Assembly: GCA_027037055.1 (NCBI GenBank)
Contig: JALWBR010000017.1
Location: 1 to 35,155 of the forward strand
From: Aquificales bacterium
GTDB lineage: Bacteria > Aquificota > Aquificia > Aquificales > Aquificaceae
Direction: 5' to 3'
DNA length: 35,155 bases
The notes under the pieces are model-generated. The model was not told where the DNA came from and ran no database searches. It worked only from the letters and a program-made list of their open reading frames with translations. The first letter of the stretch is position 1, and each line of letters starts with the position of its first letter. Positions 14,331 to 25,990 of this stretch are shown in pieces. The position numbers were made by a program, and so were the translations under genes.

Positions 14331-17159
<2,829 letters not shown>

Positions 17160-17188
<29 letters not shown>

Positions 17189-18887
17189 GGCTTCTATTAT
17201 TTATATAAGGTATTGTAACCGTAATTGTCGTTCCCTTCCCGACCTGAGAGTGTATATCCAGTGTTCCGCCCAGAAGATGGGTGTATCTCATGACTATGGG
17301 TAAGCCGAGACCTGTTCCTCCCTTTTTAGTTGTAAAAAATGGTGAGAATATTTTGTCCATATTTTCTTTGGGTATCCCCTTACCCGAATCGGATATGGTT
17401 ATCTGCACTTCCATATTTTTCCTTACAGCGGATACATGTATGAAGCCTTTACCGTCAATGGCTTCAATTGCATTGTTTAAAAGGTTTGTAAGTATTGCAT
17501 TTAAAGCCTCCCTGTTTGAGTATATATGTATATCTTCAAAACGGGTTTTAAGTTCTATATTTTTTTCTTTGATCCTCGGGAGAAGCAGGGATATGTTCTC
17601 CTTTATTACCTCGCTTATATTAAGTATGTTCCAGTTTCCTCCTCCTATTTTTGCGAAGGTCAAAAACTCATTAACTATACTGTCAATTCGCGATATGGAT
17701 TTTTTAATTATCTCTATATCCTTTTTATCGCATTCATCCATAGAGGTAAGGAGTTTAACTGGTAAAAGGGCGTTTTTTAACTCATGGGCAAGGTTGGCGG
17801 ACATCTCTCCCAGAAAAGAAAGGGCTTCAATCCTTTTCATTTTATTCTCAAGCTCTTTTATCTTTGAAATATCCGCTATGGTTACAATGTACCACTCTTT
17901 GGCGGGCATTATACTTAGCAGGGACGGAATACTTCCTCCTTTCCTTTTCCTTATCTCCGTTTCGTAGGTAAAGGGAAGCTTGTTGTTCAGCGAATTCCTC
18001 AGTATGGTTCTGTCCCTTGGATACTTTATTAAAACTGAAAACCTCCTGCCGAGAAGTTGGTGATAGTTAAATCCGAGGGTTTCAATCCTGTGGTTTGTAA
18101 AGAATATCCTCATCTCCCTATCAAGGATGAGTACTATGTCATATACGTTGTTTACTATCTCCGCATAAAAGTCTTGGGCAAATCTTATGTTATTAAGGAA
18201 TGTATTAACATTTTTGAAGGCTTCATAAACCACATCCGCAAGGTCTTGAATCTCATCCTTTTCAGGAAAGTCTATTTTATTTACTTCCTCTATATGTCCC
18301 TTTCTGACCTTCTCCGCTTCCTTCAGTATCCTCCTCAATCTTGAATTTATCCTATAGGATATTATGAGACTCAACAAAATACCCACCAATCCGAAGCCCG
18401 AAGATATACCTAAAACGCTGTATTTTATATAAGAAAACTGTTTTGTTATTTCCTTTTTATCAAGCCTTATAACAACGAATCCTACGGGATTTCCCTCTTT
18501 GTCAGTTACCTTGTGTTTAACTATATGTCTTTTATCTTCCAGGAGGCGGGATAGACCAAAAGGTATCTTGTCTTTACTTGTGTATGTTAGAGCGTACCCT
18601 TTTTCATCAAGGAAGGCTACTTCCTTTATAAACCTCTGGGCTATTATTGATTGGCTTATCTCTTTTAGTGTTTTTTCATCCTTTTTGATCAAGAATTCGG
18701 AGATGTTGCTTTCCTCAATTTCAAGGAAGTTTTTTATTGCTTCCTCCGTTGTTTCAAAAAGGATATTCTCCCCGAAATTTACCATGACAACCGTAAGGGG
18801 CAGGGATGAGAGAAGAATAACCATGAAAAAGGTTACCGCTAACTTTATGCCTATGCTTAAATGGAGAAGATTTTTAAGCCAGCTCAC
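17160..18887 (-). CDS. Membrane-bound sensor histidine kinase (HAMP-PAS-HisKA-HATPase)
   Basis: This is the partner kinase of the NtrC-type regulator, 575 residues. The N-terminus has a membrane helix (about 12-35), a predicted outside-facing sensor domain of about 120 residues, a second helix (about 155-178), and a HAMP region. A PAS-like domain (about 240-345) follows, then a HisKA domain with H368 in SANLAHELKNALLP. The ATPase domain has the N-box LLNNAIEAI, G1 DSGKGIP and G2 KKGGTGLGLPIV. Layout resembles NtrY/AtoS-type kinases. The start is GTG at 18887 with a poor ribosome-binding site. The signal sensed is unknown; the divergent quinol-oxidising complex suggests a redox, quinone or electron-acceptor cue, but that is inference. 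Confidence 0.93.
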
Positions 18888-18972
18888 CGTACATATTATT
18901 TTGCGTACTTTGGACGGATGGTCAAGTTTTTACCAGTCCTAACAAAAAATTTGCCACCTTTTATTTGTTTAA

Positions 18973-18992
18973 TAAATCGGATGACTGATTTA
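18973..18992. promoter_or_regulatory. Palindrome upstream of the sigma-54 promoter (candidate activator site)
   Basis: TAAATC (18973-18978) and GATTTA (18987-18992) form a perfect inverted repeat with an 8-bp spacer. The centre is about 76 bp before the predicted start site at 19059. A dyad at this distance fits an upstream activating sequence for an NtrC-type dimer. It is the best dyad in the 181-bp gap; a second copy was not identified. Confidence 0.45.
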
Positions 18993-19032
18993 AGTTTTTA
19001 ATTTTAGGAGCATAAATTAGGTGGGGGGATTT

Positions 19033-19047
19033 TGGCACGCTTCTTGC
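19033..19047 (+). promoter_or_regulatory. Sigma-54 (-24/-12) promoter of the ACIII operon
   Basis: TGGCAC-GCTTC-TTGCA runs from 19033 to 19048, matching the sigma-54 consensus TGGCACN5TTGCW. The invariant GG is at 19034-19035 and GC at 19046-19047, with exactly 10 bp between them. The predicted start is near 19059, which leaves only about 10 nt before the actA ATG at 19069. A divergent NtrC-type regulator gene stands next to it. Confidence 0.88.
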
Positions 19048-19068
19048 AAATTGAATAAGGAGGCTGTT

Positions 19069-19665
19069 ATGAGGAAAAGCCTTGGTGTTCTTGTTATACT
19101 CGGCGTAGTTATTTTCGTCATAGGCGGAGCTTTACTATATTTGTTTACATCGCTCGGTGTTAAGATAGAACCCCTCGGTGATGCCTTTGTAGTTTACAGG
19201 GTTGAAACTCCCGAACAGCCCATAGAGTTTCCCCACTACAAGCATGTAAAGGATGTGGGACTGCAGTGTACATACTGCCATGCCTACGCGGATAAGGCTG
19301 TAAGCCCAGGTATTCCTCCCTTGGAAGTTTGTATGGGTTGCCATTCGGTTATAGCTACGGATAAGCCCAGAATTAAAAAGTTGACCGAATACTGGAACAA
19401 GAAGGAACCAGTTCCTTGGAGGCATGTTAATAAACTTCCGGATTTTGTCTTTTTTACTCACAAAAGACATGTAAAGGCGGGTGTTGATTGTAAAGCATGT
19501 CACGGAGATCTCGGAACGATGACCGTTGCCCAGAGGGTAAAACCTTTAAAGATGGGTTGGTGCCTTTCCTGTCATAATGATGTAAAAGGCTATCTTGAGG
19601 CTCAAGGATTGCCTCCCGCAAAGGTGGACAGGGCTCCCACCGACTGTTGGACTTGCCATAAATAG
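19069..19665 (+). CDS. actA: Pentaheme cytochrome c subunit, alternative complex III subunit A
   Basis: This is a 198-residue multiheme cytochrome c anchored by an N-terminal helix (about 4-28) with the rest in the periplasm. Five CxxCH sites are visible: C67-H71, C88-H92, C141-H145, C165-H169 and C193-H197. This matches the pentaheme ActA of alternative complex III, which receives electrons from the iron-sulfur subunit and passes them towards a terminal oxidase. The ATG at 19069 is used because it follows AAGGAGG and lies just after the sigma-54 start; an in-frame GTG at 19021 is upstream of that promoter. It is the first gene of the actABCDF operon and lies 12 bp before actB. Confidence 0.92.
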   Translation: MRKSLGVLVILGVVIFVIGGALLYLFTSLGVKIEPLGDAFVVYRVETPEQPIEFPHYKHVKDVGLQCTYCHAYADKAVSPGIPPLEVCMGCHSVIATDKPRIKKLTEYWNKKEPVPWRHVNKLPDFVFFTHKRHVKAGVDCKACHGDLGTMTVAQRVKPLKMGWCLSCHNDVKGYLEAQGLPPAKVDRAPTDCWTCHK

Positions 19666-19677
19666 GAGGGCTTAAAT

Positions 19678-22600
19678 ATGAAAAGAAGGGACTTTATAAA
19701 ATTTATAGGGTTTATATCAGGAAGTGCAGCCCTATCCTCTTGTACGGGTCATCTTAATAAAAATCATTACTTCAGGACTGATGAAATAATTCCCTTTGTT
19801 TCACCTCCCCCCGACAGGATTCCTCCCGATGCGGGAGGCGGAGGAGAGGGTTTATACTTCCCTACGGTATGTGCGGAGTGTCCCTCTGGGTGTCCCGCCC
19901 TTGCCTTTGTGAGGGATAAGGTCTATGACAGGGTACACGGCAAATATCCCACCAAACTTGAGGGTATGCCTAATCATCCCATAACCTCAGGTGCTTTTAA
20001 AGAACCTTTTAACGCTGGTGTTCTTTGCATAAGGGGGCAAGCGTCCCTATACAGGATTTATAGCCCAGAAAGGTATAAGAATCCTCTCATTAAAGATACA
20101 AACGGTAACTGGAGGGAGATAACTTGGAAGGAGGCTATAGATCTTGTTGTTGATAGATTGAAGGAGGCAGAGAAAAAGGGTCTGAGGAGTGTTTACCTTT
20201 CTTCAAGGACTACAGGTTCCCTTTCCCATCTTATAGATGAGTTTTGTAGAGAGGCGGGTATTGAGAGGTTGCCAGAATTTGAACCCATAAACCACTCCGC
20301 TGTCAGGAAGGGATATGAGGTACTATTCGGGATAAATGAACTGCCTGTTTATAAGGTTGAAAAATCTGATTTTCTATTAACCGTAGGTGCGGATATACTT
20401 GAATCCTTCGGCAATCCCGTATATTACCAATCCGCCTTTGCAAGGGCGAGGGAAAACAAAAACTTTAAATGGTTCCATATAGAACCTCACCTTACCCTCA
20501 CCGGTCTCAATGCGGATGAGAGATTTTCCGTAGAGCCTGGTACGGAACATTTTCTTCTCTCCTTTATGTTGCGGTGGATAGTAGAAAGCGGTGTTGCTGT
20601 AAGGGAAGTTCCCGAGGAGATAATTCAATATGTACCCCGTTACTCCTTGTGGGAGGTTGCGGAAAGAACTGGTATAAAGGCGGAGAATATTGACAGACTC
20701 CTCGCTAAGATGTCAAGGGCGAGGAAACCCCTCGTTATAGTAGGTGGCGTCTCAACCGCTCATGATACTGGTCTTGATGTTGCTGTCTTGGGGGGACTTA
20801 TACAGTGGGCTATGGGTATGACGGATGATCTTATAGACTTTACATATTCAGAAAACTATGAAAGAGTTGGAAATTTCATAGATCTCAGAAACTTTATGTC
20901 CGAACTAAGTATGAGAAAGATCGGGGTGGTTTTTCTCTCAAAAGTTGACCCTGCTTCCTTTGAGGGTAAAAAGTTTAAAAATCTTTTGAAGAATGCCCAC
21001 TTTGTTGTTGGTTTGTACGATTTGCCCAATGATACTGCACGGGAGTGTGATCTAATACTTCCCCTTTCCCATCCTATAGAAAGCTGGGGTGATTCTGAAC
21101 CCAGAAAAGGTATGCTTTCCGTTTACAAGCCCGCTCTTGAGATTCTTATTCCTCCCGAAAGCGATCCCTCTAATAACAGACCCCTATTTAACACCCTCCC
21201 CGAGGGCGATATCCTTATTACAATACTAAGGAGATACAAAGGCAAAAGTATTGCTAAGGACTTTAAAGAGTATGTCTATAAAAGGATAGAAAGGGATTAC
21301 GGCAAGGAGGTTGCGGATAGACTCTTTAATGCGGGTCCCTATGAATGGCCCGCTTTCAATATACCGTCCGATAAACTTCCGTATCACATAAAGGAACTAC
21401 CTAAGGTAAATCTGAATTTGAGAACTAATATAGTAAGGTCTTTGATCAGGAACATAAGGTATGAAAATGAGATAAAGAAGCCTGCCCTTGTTCTTACACC
21501 TTCCATAAGGTGGTATGATGGCAGAAGTAAAAGTAATCTCCTTTTGAATGAGATTCCTGATCCCATAACCGCCATATCTTACGGTGATTATGTGTTGGTT
21601 CCCGAGGACACCGCTAAGAGGTTCAGAATAAGAAATATACCCAATAAGAAGTTGTTAAGAGAGGAAGTTGTTATAGCAGGTAAAGAGGTTAAGAAAACCA
21701 CCCTCGCTCATATACAGAAGGGTTTGGCGGATGGGGTTATAGTTGCATATATGGGTACGATAATTCCGGAAAAATTCAATGTGGACGGCAGGACCGGAGA
21801 GCTTGTGCCTTTCATAGAGGTTGTAAGTATTAAGAAAACCGGTAATGTAAGGAATGTGCCGATACTTTCTGGATCTTTCTCGGATCACGGCAGGGGTGTT
21901 GTTCCTATACCTTATAGGGAGGCTAAGGAAGAGCATATGGAAGAGGAAGATATGCATGCGTGGGGTCATGAGGCGCCTCCGGGTAAATTTAAATATCCTT
22001 ACGCAAAACACCCTTTTGCCCAACTGCCCTATCCCGATCACAGTCATGTGCATAAGACTTATCTCTGGGCTATGGCTGTTGATCTTGACAAATGTGTAGG
22101 ATGTTCTGCCTGCGTAGCTGCATGCTACATAGAAAATAATGTTCCCATAGCAGGTCCCTCGGAACACCTCAAAGGTAGGGAGATGTCTTGGATAAGGGTG
22201 GAACCTTACTATAAAGAAAACGGTGAGGTCAACTTTGTATTAATGATGTGTCAGCAGTGTGAAAATGCAACCTGTGAACCTGTATGCCCTGCAAAGGCAA
22301 CCTATCACAATGACGAAGGGTTAAATGTGCAGGTGTGGAACAGGTGTGTCGGTACGAGATACTGTTCAAACAACTGCCCTTACAAGGCAAGGCGATTTAA
22401 CTGGTTTGATTACAAATGGGAGTCACCCCTTGATAGGATGCTTAATCCCGATCTTGCGGTAAGGGGTAAAGGGGTTATGGAAAAATGTACCTTCTGCTTC
22501 CACAGAATAAGGAAAGCGAGGGATCTTGCCAAGGATGAGCATAGGATGATTAAGGAGGGTGAGCTTCTGCCCGCATGTGCCCAGACATGTCCGAGCGGTG

Positions 22601-22740
22601 CCATAGTTTTCGGCAACTTCCTGGATGAAAACTCGCAGGTTTACAAGATGTCTAAGGATAAGGATTCATACAGAATCTTTGATCTCCTTGGGACGGAACC
22701 CAAGGTTTACTACCTTCCAAAGGTGAGAAGGAGGGTTTAA
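19678..22740 (+). CDS. actB: Alternative complex III subunit B (molybdopterin-oxidoreductase-like plus ferredoxin domains)
   Basis: This 1020-residue exported protein begins with a twin-arginine motif (KRRDFIKFIG) and a lipobox-like ALSSC with C22, so Tat export and lipid anchoring are likely. Residues about 60-740 resemble the catalytic subunit of molybdopterin oxidoreductases. In known ACIII this domain holds no cofactor, but here C65, C68, C72 and C117 keep the cysteine pattern of an N-terminal [4Fe-4S] site. From about 790 a ferredoxin-like domain shows four cysteine clusters (CVGCSACVAAC, CQQCENATCEPVCP, CVGTRYCSNNCP, and CTFCFHR with CAQTCP), as expected for three [4Fe-4S] and one [3Fe-4S] centres. 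It should carry electrons from the quinol site in ActC to ActA. Confidence 0.93.
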   Translation: MKRRDFIKFIGFISGSAALSSCTGHLNKNHYFRTDEIIPFVSPPPDRIPPDAGGGGEGLYFPTVCAECPSGCPALAFVRDKVYDRVHGKYPTKLEGMPNHPITSGAFKEPFNAGVLCIRGQASLYRIYSPERYKNPLIKDTNGNWREITWKEAIDLVVDRLKEAEKKGLRSVYLSSRTTGSLSHLIDEFCREAGIERLPEFEPINHSAVRKGYEVLFGINELPVYKVEKSDFLLTVGADILESFGNPVYYQSAFARARENKNFKWFHIEPHLTLTGLNADERFSVEPGTEHFLLSFMLRWIVESGVAVREVPEEIIQYVPRYSLWEVAERTGIKAENIDRLLAKMSRARKPLVIVGGVSTAHDTGLDVAVLGGLIQWAMGMTDDLIDFTYSENYERVGNFIDLRNFMSELSMRKIGVVFLSKVDPASFEGKKFKNLLKNAHFVVGLYDLPNDTARECDLILPLSHPIESWGDSEPRKGMLSVYKPALEILIPPESDPSNNRPLFNTLPEGDILITILRRYKGKSIAKDFKEYVYKRIERDYGKEVADRLFNAGPYEWPAFNIPSDKLPYHIKELPKVNLNLRTNIVRSLIRNIRYENEIKKPALVLTPSIRWYDGRSKSNLLLNEIPDPITAISYGDYVLVPEDTAKRFRIRNIPNKKLLREEVVIAGKEVKKTTLAHIQKGLADGVIVAYMGTIIPEKFNVDGRTGELVPFIEVVSIKKTGNVRNVPILSGSFSDHGRGVVPIPYREAKEEHMEEEDMHAWGHEAPPGKFKYPYAKHPFAQLPYPDHSHVHKTYLWAMAVDLDKCVGCSACVAACYIENNVPIAGPSEHLKGREMSWIRVEPYYKENGEVNFVLMMCQQCENATCEPVCPAKATYHNDEGLNVQVWNRCVGTRYCSNNCPYKARRFNWFDYKWESPLDRMLNPDLAVRGKGVMEKCTFCFHRIRKARDLAKDEHRMIKEGELLPACAQTCPSGAIVFGNFLDENSQVYKMSKDKDSYRIFDLLGTEPKVYYLPKVRRRV

Positions 22741-22741
22741 T

Positions 22742-24061
22742 ATGGCAACCAAACTTTCTGAAAGGCTTGACAAGATAGACAGAGATATCCTTATGCCCAT
22801 GGTAAAACCCGGTAAGACCTATTGGATAGCTCTTGGACTCTGTGTATTCTTTGTCCTTGTCGCCATAGGTGCGTGGATTTACCAGTTAAAAACCGGTCTC
22901 GGAGCTGCAGGTATAAGACACCCCGGTATGTGGGGATTTTATATTATCAACTTTGTTTTCTGGGTAGGGATAGCACACTCTGGAACTCTAATATCCGCTG
23001 TCTTATTGCTATTCAGGGCAAACTTCAGGAGTGCCTTTAACAGATCAGCGGAAGCTATGACAATATTTGCTGTTATGACAGCGGGACTATTTCCCATTAT
23101 TCACGCGGGGAGACCTTGGAAGATATATTGGCTGTTCCCTTACCCTACTCAACGGGAGATCTGGCCTAATTTCTTTTCTCCCCTTGAGTGGGATGTTTTT
23201 GCGGTATCCACCTACTTTACCATAAGCCTTATATTCTGGTACCTCGGTATGGTGCCTGATCTTGCCATAGCAAGGAGATTTTTCGGAGGAATAAGAGGAT
23301 TTTTCTACAGACTGTTTTCCTTAGGATGGACGGGTACCGTTCCTCAGTGGATGCATTATGTAAGGGCATCCCTGTTCCTTGCGGCCTTTGCAACACCACT
23401 TGTTGCATCCGTTCACTCGGTAGTATCCTTTGACTTTGCGGTGTCAATAGTTCCTGGTTGGCATGCAACCATATTCCCTCCCTTCTTTGTAGCAGGTGCT
23501 ATATTCTCCGGATGTGCAATGGTATTTACCCTTGTTATACCCATGAGGAAAATATTCAAGTTGGAAGAGTATATAACCATAGATCACTTTGAAAATCTGG
23601 CTAAGCTTACCCTTTTCACCGGTCTTATAGTTACCTACGCTTATATCACAGAGTTTACCCTACCCTTATACGGTGAAAATATATTTGAGAGGGATCAATT
23701 CGTTTACAGGGCTTTCGGAGATTACAAGTGGTACTCATGGGCTATGATTTTCTGTAACTCCGTTGTTCCCCTTGTACTCTTTATAAAACAGATGAGGAGA
23801 AATCTACTTGTTCTCTTCATAGTTTCCATCTTTATCAACATAGGTATGTGGCTTGAAAGATTTGTTATCGTTGTCATCTCTCTGGCTCATGAATATGAAC
23901 CTTATTCTTGGGGACTTTATCACCCGAGCATTGTTGAAATACTTATAACCATAGGTAGCTTTGCATGGTTCTTTATGTGGTTCCTTCTCTTTACGAGGGC
24001 TATACCTGTTGTTTCCATATTTGAAGTTAAGGAAGAGAGAGTCAGGGAGGAAGAAAAATGA
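22742..24061 (+). CDS. actC: Alternative complex III subunit C (NrfD/PsrC-like quinol-binding membrane protein)
   Basis: This 439-residue integral membrane protein belongs to the NrfD/PsrC family with about ten helices. Typical stretches are WVGIAHSGTLISAVLLLFR, IIHAGRPWKIYWLFPYP, SPLEWDVFAVSTYF and the second-half HSVVSFDFAVSIVPGWH, all characteristic of ActC. In ACIII this subunit binds and oxidises menaquinol at the outer side of the membrane. It starts 1 bp after the actB stop behind GGAGGG. Its stop overlaps the actD start (ATGA). Confidence 0.94.
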   Translation: MATKLSERLDKIDRDILMPMVKPGKTYWIALGLCVFFVLVAIGAWIYQLKTGLGAAGIRHPGMWGFYIINFVFWVGIAHSGTLISAVLLLFRANFRSAFNRSAEAMTIFAVMTAGLFPIIHAGRPWKIYWLFPYPTQREIWPNFFSPLEWDVFAVSTYFTISLIFWYLGMVPDLAIARRFFGGIRGFFYRLFSLGWTGTVPQWMHYVRASLFLAAFATPLVASVHSVVSFDFAVSIVPGWHATIFPPFFVAGAIFSGCAMVFTLVIPMRKIFKLEEYITIDHFENLAKLTLFTGLIVTYAYITEFTLPLYGENIFERDQFVYRAFGDYKWYSWAMIFCNSVVPLVLFIKQMRRNLLVLFIVSIFINIGMWLERFVIVVISLAHEYEPYSWGLYHPSIVEILITIGSFAWFFMWFLLFTRAIPVVSIFEVKEERVREEEK

Positions 24062-24549
24062 AAAAGGTGGAGTTTGTTTTTGACGAAAAGGAAGATTTTG
24101 TGGCAAAATTGAAGGAGATTGTTGATGCGGGTATTAGCCCCAAGGATATAAGGGTTATAACGCCCATACCCGTTCATGAGGTGGATGAGATACTCGGTAC
24201 ACACCCACACAGGAGTAAAATCAAATATTTTACCCTTGTGGGAGCCCTTACGGGCTTCACAGCAGGATATGCTTTGACCACATATACCCATCTAAGTTGG
24301 GAAAATCCTCCTCTCATAGTGGGAGGTAAACCTTTGGTGAGTGTTATACCCTTCTTCGTCATAGCCTATGAGCTAACCATACTATTCGGAGGAATAGCTA
24401 CCTTTATAGGCTTGCTGATTCTTGCCGGTCTTCCAAGCATTAAAAGGATTATATCTCCAGAGGATTACGGAAATAAGTTCGTCATACAGGTAAAGGGTGA
24501 AAGTGTTGAGGAGATAGAGGCACTTTTAAAGGCTGAGGAGGAAGCGTAA
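24058..24549 (+). CDS. actD: Alternative complex III subunit D (DUF3341)
   Basis: This 163-residue protein has a soluble N-terminal part (IRVITPIPVHEVDEIL is typical of the family) and two membrane helices (ALTGFTAGYALTTY and the stretch around YELTILFGGIATFIG), then a short soluble tail. It matches ActD (DUF3341), a structural subunit of ACIII with no cofactor. Overlaps on both sides (ATGA with actC, TAATG with actF) show tight coupling. Confidence 0.92.
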   Translation: MKKVEFVFDEKEDFVAKLKEIVDAGISPKDIRVITPIPVHEVDEILGTHPHRSKIKYFTLVGALTGFTAGYALTTYTHLSWENPPLIVGGKPLVSVIPFFVIAYELTILFGGIATFIGLLILAGLPSIKRIISPEDYGNKFVIQVKGESVEEIEALLKAEEEA

Positions 24550-25568
24550 TGGGAAGCAAGTCTCTTTGGATAGGTTTCGGTGTAGTATGGTTTATATTTC
24601 TGATAATTGAGATAATAAAGGGTGTTGACGGCACTCTACTTGTGAGTCTATCATACCTTTCCGCCATAACCCAAGGTGCTATAGCTATAGTTGCCATTGC
24701 GGAAACGGTGAGGGGTGGGTGGATAAAACCTGTTAAAGGGTATCTACTTTCCCTTTATCCCGCGGTCATATTCTCCGTCAGCCTATTCTTTATCTTCATG
24801 TTCCAACTGGATATTTATCCGTGGGCGAAGCATCAGGGTCTTTGGCTCAACAAGGGGTTTTATATTTTAAGGAATTTGTTCCTTTATGAAGCTATATGTC
24901 TTGCTGCGTGGAAATATGCTACCGAATCTCTTAAAGAGAGTGATAAAAAGTACTTCTGGGCTGTTATATATCTTTTTGCCTTTGTTGCATTTCAGGCAAA
25001 TATAGGTTACGACTGGTTTATGCCCCTTGACTATCCTTGGTACAGCTCCCTCTTTGATGCCTATATAACCCTTGAAGCTGTATATTCCGCCCTCGCCCTG
25101 ATAGCTGTTATCAGGTTTATCATATATATCAAGAACGGCGGGAAATTCCCCGAGATATTTAAAAAGACCCAATGGGATTCTTCCACCATTATGTTTGGAT
25201 TCAGCTTTCTGTGGGGGTACTTCTTATATTCCCAGGTGCTTATAATATGGTATGGGAACCTCTATGAAGAGTTCCATTACTTTCTGAAAAGGCTTGAACA
25301 TTTCCCCGTAGGTACATACCTTATACCTATTCTCCTGTTGGCTATTCCGTGGCTCAGTCTTCTTTTTAGAAAGATTAAGCTTACGCCTTATTTAATGGTT
25401 GTCATAGCGGGTGTGGTTCTCTTCGGACTGTTCCTTGAAAGGATAGTTATAGTGGGTTCTGTAGCCCATGTAAATATATTTGTCGCGGTTGTGGAGGTTA
25501 TCCTTATCTGGTTTGTGATATACTTTACCATAAAAAACAGGAGGGATGCTGTTGCAACAACAAGCTAA
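24549..25568 (+). CDS. actF: Alternative complex III subunit F-like membrane protein
   Basis: This 339-residue polytopic membrane protein has about nine or ten helices and is distantly similar to ActC. The stretch GYDWFMPLDYPWYSSLFDAY is diagnostic for ActF, a second NrfD-like subunit without a known quinol site. It is somewhat shorter than the roughly 400 residues usual for ActF. In the canonical order actABCDEF the lipoprotein cytochrome ActE stands between D and F; here D and F overlap directly, so no ActE is encoded at that place. Confidence 0.9.
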   Translation: MGSKSLWIGFGVVWFIFLIIEIIKGVDGTLLVSLSYLSAITQGAIAIVAIAETVRGGWIKPVKGYLLSLYPAVIFSVSLFFIFMFQLDIYPWAKHQGLWLNKGFYILRNLFLYEAICLAAWKYATESLKESDKKYFWAVIYLFAFVAFQANIGYDWFMPLDYPWYSSLFDAYITLEAVYSALALIAVIRFIIYIKNGGKFPEIFKKTQWDSSTIMFGFSFLWGYFLYSQVLIIWYGNLYEEFHYFLKRLEHFPVGTYLIPILLLAIPWLSLLFRKIKLTPYLMVVIAGVVLFGLFLERIVIVGSVAHVNIFVAVVEVILIWFVIYFTIKNRRDAVATTS

Positions 25569-25578
25569 GATTTCAATA

Positions 25579-25600
25579 TGCTATAATGTTGAATATTCAA
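25579..25600 (+). promoter_or_regulatory. Extended -10 promoter and palindrome before the cytochrome c-552-like gene
   Basis: TGCTATAAT (25579-25587) is an extended -10 element in the gap after actF. A perfect 12-bp palindrome, TTGAATATTCAA (25589-25600), covers the expected start site near 25594. The octamer TTCAATAT occurs twice, at 25572-25579 and 25596-25603, on either side of the -10 box. The cytochrome can thus be transcribed apart from the sigma-54 operon and may be controlled by a repressor at the palindrome. Confidence 0.5.
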
Positions 25601-25622
25601 TATCCCAAAGGAGGTGGGTAGT

Positions 25623-25937
25623 ATGAAGAAAGTAGCTTTGCTTGCTTTAATCGGCTTTGCCGGCATGTCCTTTGCCATATCTTCCAAGGCGGAGGCGGAA
25701 GCATTTATGAAGAAGAATGGGTGTGTAGCATGCCATGATTTTAATGTGAAAAAGATAGGACCTTCTTTTAAGGACATAGCCGCGAAATATAAGGGTCAAG
25801 CGGGTGCTGTTGACAAGCTTGTAGAGAAGGTAAAGAAAGGCGGTTCCGGTGTGTGGGGATCCACACCCATGCCTCCTCAAGCTGTACCCGCGGATCAAGA
25901 AAAGGCATTTATTGAGTGGGTTCTCAGCAACCTCTGA
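25623..25937 (+). CDS. Periplasmic monoheme cytochrome c, class I c-551/c-552 type
   Basis: This is a small exported electron carrier of 104 residues. It has a cleavable signal peptide (MKKVALLALIGFAGMSFA, then about 86 mature residues), one heme site CVACH, and the axial Met in STPMPPQ. The pattern KKIGPSFKDIAAKY ... KKGGSGVWGSTPMPPQ closely resembles Hydrogenobacter cytochrome c-552. It probably carries electrons from ACIII to CuA of the oxidase encoded downstream, taking the place of the absent ActE. There is no lipobox. The ATG at 25623 is chosen since AAAGGAGGTG lies just upstream and a signal peptide follows; the in-frame GTG at 25614 is less likely. Confidence 0.93.
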   Translation: MKKVALLALIGFAGMSFAISSKAEAEAFMKKNGCVACHDFNVKKIGPSFKDIAAKYKGQAGAVDKLVEKVKKGGSGVWGSTPMPPQAVPADQEKAFIEWVLSNL

Positions 25938-25954
25938 TCTGATTACAAACTTTG

Positions 25955-25976
25955 CCCCGCCTGAGGGCGGGGTTTT
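25955..25976 (+). terminator. Intrinsic terminator after the ACIII-cytochrome c unit
   Basis: A perfect 7-bp GC stem (CCCCGCC 25955-25961, GGCGGGG 25966-25972) with loop TGAG is followed by TTTT. It closes the actA-to-cytochrome c transcription unit and separates it from the oxidase cluster. Confidence 0.85.
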
Positions 25977-25977
25977 G

Positions 25978-25983
25978 TATAAT
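25978..25983 (+). promoter_or_regulatory. TATAAT -10 box for the TlpA-like gene, leaderless arrangement
   Basis: TATAAT begins one base after the T-run of the terminator and ends 7 bp before the GTG start at 25991. No ribosome-binding site fits in between (CTAAGGT directly abuts the GTG), so initiation at or next to the start codon is expected. Confidence 0.5.
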
Positions 25984-25990
25984 CTAAGGT

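Follow-up and report, generated by a model that had tools for sequence, protein, structure and literature searches.

The activation of the RpoN-dependent aioBA genes by AioR is established in Proteobacteria (PMC6011840, PMC7533571); the RpoN promoter of aioB in NT-26 is TGGCACAACGATTGCA (PMC6011840), and the proteobacterial AioR site is GTT-N10-AAC (PMC5335332). The locus described here lies in a 35,155-nucleotide stretch of an Aquificaceae genome (the window; genome G000) and, like the AioXSR/aioBA systems of Agrobacterium, Rhizobium NT-26 and Herminiimonas, it combines a kinase, an NtrC-type regulator, an RpoN promoter and an upstream regulator site. It differs from these systems in that neither AioX nor arsenite oxidase is detectable in the genome, in that the target here would be an alternative complex III (ACIII), and in that the Aquificaceae dyad, TGGTCAA-N3-TTTACCA or TGCTCAAAATTTGAGCA, is not the GTT-N10-AAC of Proteobacteria (PMC5335332). 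With the ACIII operons of Rhodothermus, Bacteroidota and Gemmatimonadota it has the core subunits ActA–ActD in common but, unlike the window, the ACIII loci examined outside Aquificaceae show no canonical sigma-54 element before actA. The domain order of the regulator is that of Aquifex aeolicus NtrC1 and NtrC4, from which it differs by a GSFTGA loop and by the genes regulated. Its best sequence matches among solved structures are the NtrC-family structures 4l4u, 1ny5 and 3dzd, which we take to be A. aeolicus proteins. We consider it highly likely that the locus carries an AioSR-like sigma-54 switch that works without AioX and is wired to ACIII; expression of ACIII in this genus very probably depends on an inducing signal rather than being constitutive. 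The features of the locus are listed in Table 1.

Table 1. Features of the act locus and of the divergent gene pair (window coordinates)
Feature	Position	Strand	Evidence or remarks
AioR-like NtrC-type response regulator	15806..17188	-	receiver, sigma-54 AAA+, Fis-type HTH
AioS-like membrane histidine kinase, divergent from actA	17160..18887	-	HisKA, HATPase_c, PAS
Candidate activator site 1, dyad TGGTCAAGTTTTTACCA	18919..18935	.	113 bp before -24 element; matrix 16.1 bits
Candidate activator site 2, degenerate dyad TAACAAAAAATTTGCCA	18940..18956	.	21 bp from site 1; 3.7 bits
Sigma-54 -24/-12 promoter element TGGCACGCTTCTTGC	19033..19047	+	pattern match, position, conservation
actA, pentaheme cytochrome c	19069..19665	+	five CXXCH motifs; PF14522
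actB, molybdopterin-type and FeS domains in a single chain	19678..22740	+	
actC, NrfD-type membrane subunit	22742..24061	+	PF03916
actD	24058..24549	+	PF11821, 115 bits
actF-like membrane protein	24549..25568	+	no Pfam hit; assigned from operon position
Monoheme cytochrome c (actE-like)	25623..25937	+	PF00034; one CXXCH
Intrinsic terminator-like hairpin 3' of the cytochrome gene	25954..25973	+	stem and T-run conserved, loop variable

An earlier note on this DNA had described a full-consensus -24/-12 element with exact 10-nt GG–GC spacing directly before actA, and this description holds. TTGGCACG-N4-TTGCA at 19032–19048 is a full sigma-54 element, 21 nt upstream of the actA ATG, in which exactly 10 nt separate GG (19034–35) from GC (19046–47), and T (19032) and A (19048) flank TGGCACGCTTCTTGC. 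The only match to TGGCACGNNNNTTGCW without mismatch in the 35-kb window is the actA element; the core TGGCAY-N5-TTGC is seen once, against 0.07 expected per shuffled window, and the extended form of the motif was never found in 300 shuffles of the window. Over the whole genome the core has 11 matches, compared with 8 for the reversed control pattern, a signal that is not separable from background, and genome-wide counts taken alone were rejected as evidence. The core motif at genome scale is weak evidence by itself, and the promoter call rests decisively on position and conservation. Several of the 11 matches stand 17–60 nt upstream of genes, so that sigma-54 appears to be in ordinary use here, and rpoN is present (Sigma54_AID above cut-off). 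By eye, sigma-54-type sites of this genome (L105, L106, L110, L112) precede nirB-, cooS-, glnB- and uroporphyrinogen methyltransferase (cysG)-like genes. The predicted transcription start, near 19059, would give actA a leader of about 10 nt beginning at the Shine–Dalgarno sequence. If transcripts start 12 nt past GC, leaders of about 10 nt in the window (19048–19071) and about 5 nt in the other genus that has the element (G009; L114 1751–1768, minus strand) would make them nearly leaderless.

The window genome belongs to genus g1, uncultured heat-loving Aquificaceae of which four species were compared (G000 and the congeners L032/G001, L054/G002 and L034/G003), and the act operon and the same divergent gene pair adjoin in all four. 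In the alignment of these species the -24 box TTTGGCA (7/7) and the -12 box TTGC (4/4) are invariant, while none of the six spacer positions and only one of the next ten bases downstream is conserved. The element lies 21–22 nt before the actA ATG in the four g1 genomes; in G009, which belongs to another genus and whose ActA is 52% identical, TTTGGCACGGAGCTTGCA is found 16 nt before it. Because the g1 genomes are close to each other (94–97% identity for ActB), the footprint conservation rests mainly on divergence of the non-coding sequence and on the one distant genus. The refuting outcome proposed earlier, disappearance of the GG/GC pair from close relatives with the operon, is not what the genomes show: all four g1 genomes, and G009 too, have the pair. 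A search for the same element before act operons of related genomes had also been proposed; the element is present in g1 and G009 but not farther away: a third Aquificaceae lineage (L044, S141_94; ActA 47%) has a perfect sigma-70 promoter instead, TTGACA-N17-TATAAT at 1943–1971 with actA starting at 1981, and at the act loci examined in other phyla no canonical site was found in the ~400–550 bp that precede the aligned actA segment. Sigma-54 control of act would thus be a lineage trait, apparently replaced by sigma-70 elsewhere. In this stretch of L044 (1600–1971), a CRISPR-like repeat array accompanied by cas1/cas2-like genes immediately precedes the S141_94 act operon, whose promoter stands some 10 nt ahead of the actA ATG.

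The identification of the operon as encoding ACIII also stands: a multiheme ActA, ActB, an NrfD-type ActC and ActD are all encoded, together with the ActF-like protein and the monoheme cytochrome c. The genes are tightly packed through 25937, and the hairpin that follows probably terminates the act transcript ahead of the oxidase genes. At 25954–25990 the T-run of this hairpin merges with a conserved TATAAT ahead of the tlpA-cox genes. Conservation of both hairpin and TATAAT between act and tlpA-cox means that the cox genes may form a separate unit; a single control unit spanning act to cox was set aside on these grounds, read-through being possible. The only heme-copper oxidase-type subunits found in the genome are within the window. 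A separate cytochrome b is present in the same genomes as the act operon, which suggests a bc1-type complex, so that ACIII probably exists alongside it as a second complex III.

The divergent pair has the make-up of an NtrC-type two-component system, with a regulator composed of a receiver, a sigma-54 AAA+ domain (Sigma54_activat, 239 bits; Walker A and GSFTGA loop) and an HTH, and a HisKA/HATPase kinase. The sigma-54 contact loop is GSFTGA instead of GAFTGA in the four g1 regulators; the other 18 aligned NtrC-type proteins have GAFTGA (17 proteins) or GAYTGA (one, in G084). The regulator or its orthologues are present in 17 of 64 genomes (family search, E<=1e-115). Outside g1 and G009 the orthologues adjoin aioX-aioS and/or aioBA, or an FeS/NrfD/TtrA-like operon, and in G009 both genes of the pair lie on contigs separate from act. 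At the aio loci the arsenite oxidase subunits are confirmed by curated models (TIGR02693, 1074 bits; TIGR02694, 195 bits), and the aioX gene of the aioXSR arrangement encodes a PhnD-type protein. The window regulator and kinase are orthologous to those of the Aquificaceae aio loci, and the 17 act-, aio- and ttr-linked regulators group in the tree as one clade (100/99) that excludes five other NtrC-type proteins of G000. Given the branching within this clade, control of either aio or act may have come first. Searches of NCBIfam and of a plasmid collection identified the regulator no further than NtrC type, and since the matches to plasmid-borne proteins are generic (~38%), the link with AioR runs through synteny and phylogeny in Aquificaceae. 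The recognition-helix residues (NKSK-I/V-A..L..SRNTL) are largely common to the aio- and ttr-linked relatives and are not those of the G000 paralogues. In genus g11 (L155, L156, L182, L183, L185) the regulator family adjoins an FeS/NrfD/TtrA-like operon with a sigma-54 site and dyads. The kinase start codon has no Shine–Dalgarno sequence, and a conserved dyad, GTACATATTATTTTGCGTAC, lies directly at it (18889–18908), possibly a kinase promoter or operator.

The aio and ttr promoters have a sigma-54 element (TGGCA and GC in 12/13, weaker in G010) with, in most cases, two 17-bp dyads upstream of it at a spacing of 21–24 bp. Thirteen aio/ttr promoters from other genera, and no act sequences, were used to build a palindromic matrix (consensus TGCTCAAAATTTGAGCA). 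In the window this matrix places site 1 first among 35,139 positions (16.1 bits; next 13.1), and none of a further 86,730 positions in this genome comes within 3 bits of it. The search of the whole genome was made with the consensus pattern, not the matrix; it found three such dyads, of which only the act dyad occurs in all four g1 species. Among these species site 1 is invariant (17/17), the linker is not (1/4), and site 2 keeps 13 of 17 positions; weak by itself (3.7 bits), site 2 nevertheless stands at the spacing of the second site in aio promoters. The position of the pair, 92–113 bp upstream, lies within the ~80–200 bp typical of NtrC-type dyads, for 18919–18935 and, as a weak site, 18940–18956, and the distal site is at 114 bp in G007, G010, G065 and G069, compared with 113 bp in the window. 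The act promoter of G009 has two dyads too, nearer the promoter (-44 and -66).

No AioX homologue was found at E<=1e-3 in G000–G003 and G009, and AioA was not found in these genomes either, which contain only distant Mo enzymes; completeness is 99.96% for G000, 69% for G003 and 76% for G009. The nine full aio- or ttr-linked kinases aligned all have an aromatic–tryptophan pair in the periplasmic stretch, YW in eight and FW in G010, in contexts such as NRDYWSLFK and NGDYWQIFK (L152–L155, L180–L183, L185). The act-linked kinases of both genera are devoid of this pair (IKKDEKTLKE; KEGDTKLMEG), which fits a lost AioX contact, if the motif has such a contact role.

From these properties we infer that the regulator binds and activates act in response to a signal. 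The divergent kinase would respond to an envelope or respiratory signal and phosphorylate its partner; the regulator would bind the tandem dyads at 18919–18956, and its AAA+ domain would open the sigma-54 promoter via looping, allowing RpoN–RNA polymerase to transcribe actABCDF and the cytochrome c gene (~19069–25937) from 19033–19047. The pair belongs to an Aquificaceae family that in other genomes accompanies either arsenite oxidase, together with its periplasmic sensor AioX, or a TtrA-like operon; in this genome no AioX is detectable, and ACIII would be the target. The proposal that sigma-54 and an ATP-driven activator make act conditional is thus supported at the level of sequence, and it gains a divergent NtrC-type candidate with putative sites upstream of the promoter.

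Three other explanations deserve consideration. A genuine sigma-54 site could be driven by another NtrC-type regulator, the divergent pair being a mere neighbour with a different target. The genome encodes five further full Sigma54_activat proteins, and act and the pair are not neighbours in G009; but the upstream dyad matches a motif learned without act sequences at the targets of the regulator's own relatives, the recognition helix resembles that of these relatives and not that of the paralogues, and the pair adjoins act in all four g1 species. We regard this explanation as unlikely. That the -24/-12 string is a chance background match and act is constitutive is barely credible. It would agree with a core motif hardly above its reversed control in G000 and with the perfect sigma-70 promoter of the S141_94 operon, but is disfavoured: an activator and its candidate sites are present, and five genomes from two genera have retained the element at its position while the bases around it diverged.

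The regulator might also act mainly on its own promoter, act being transcribed from an unseen sigma-70 promoter. A weak sigma-70-like match on the minus strand (18925–18898), whose candidate kinase -35, TTGACC (18925–18920), overlaps site 1, and a conserved block at the kinase start (18888–18918, 26/31 in the four g1 species) could be read in this way. However, the plus strand has no sigma-70-like match from 18900 to 19069, the -24/-12 boxes are invariant around a fully variable spacer, and the layout from site to promoter is the same at aio promoters, which makes this explanation improbable, slightly more so than that of another regulator. Autoregulation and activation of act are compatible, and both may hold. 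The AioSR-like switch acting on ACIII remains the reading that we prefer.

More broadly, the AioSR-like pairs of Aquificaceae may be an exchangeable respiratory switch, in which one regulator family and its DNA motif moved among arsenite oxidase, a TtrA-like enzyme and ACIII, and in which absence of AioX and of the aromatic–tryptophan pair marks the change from a metalloid sensor to a sensor of another signal governing a core electron-transport complex; we give this generalization even chances. Our literature search, in a coverage with few subscription journals, found no paper on sigma-54 control of ACIII, so that novelty is not proven; papers that name both do so at most once or twice, and none has this subject in title or abstract. 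Compared with the earlier note, the present analysis adds the activator, its candidate sites and the link to arsenite-oxidase regulators. If the model is true, activator, binding sites and start site are all named and testable, and a genome that also encodes a bc1-type cytochrome b would make a quinol:cytochrome c oxidoreductase conditionally. Comparing the regulators linked to aio, ttr and act, which share one motif, is also a natural experiment in the change of input and target by a respiratory sensor.
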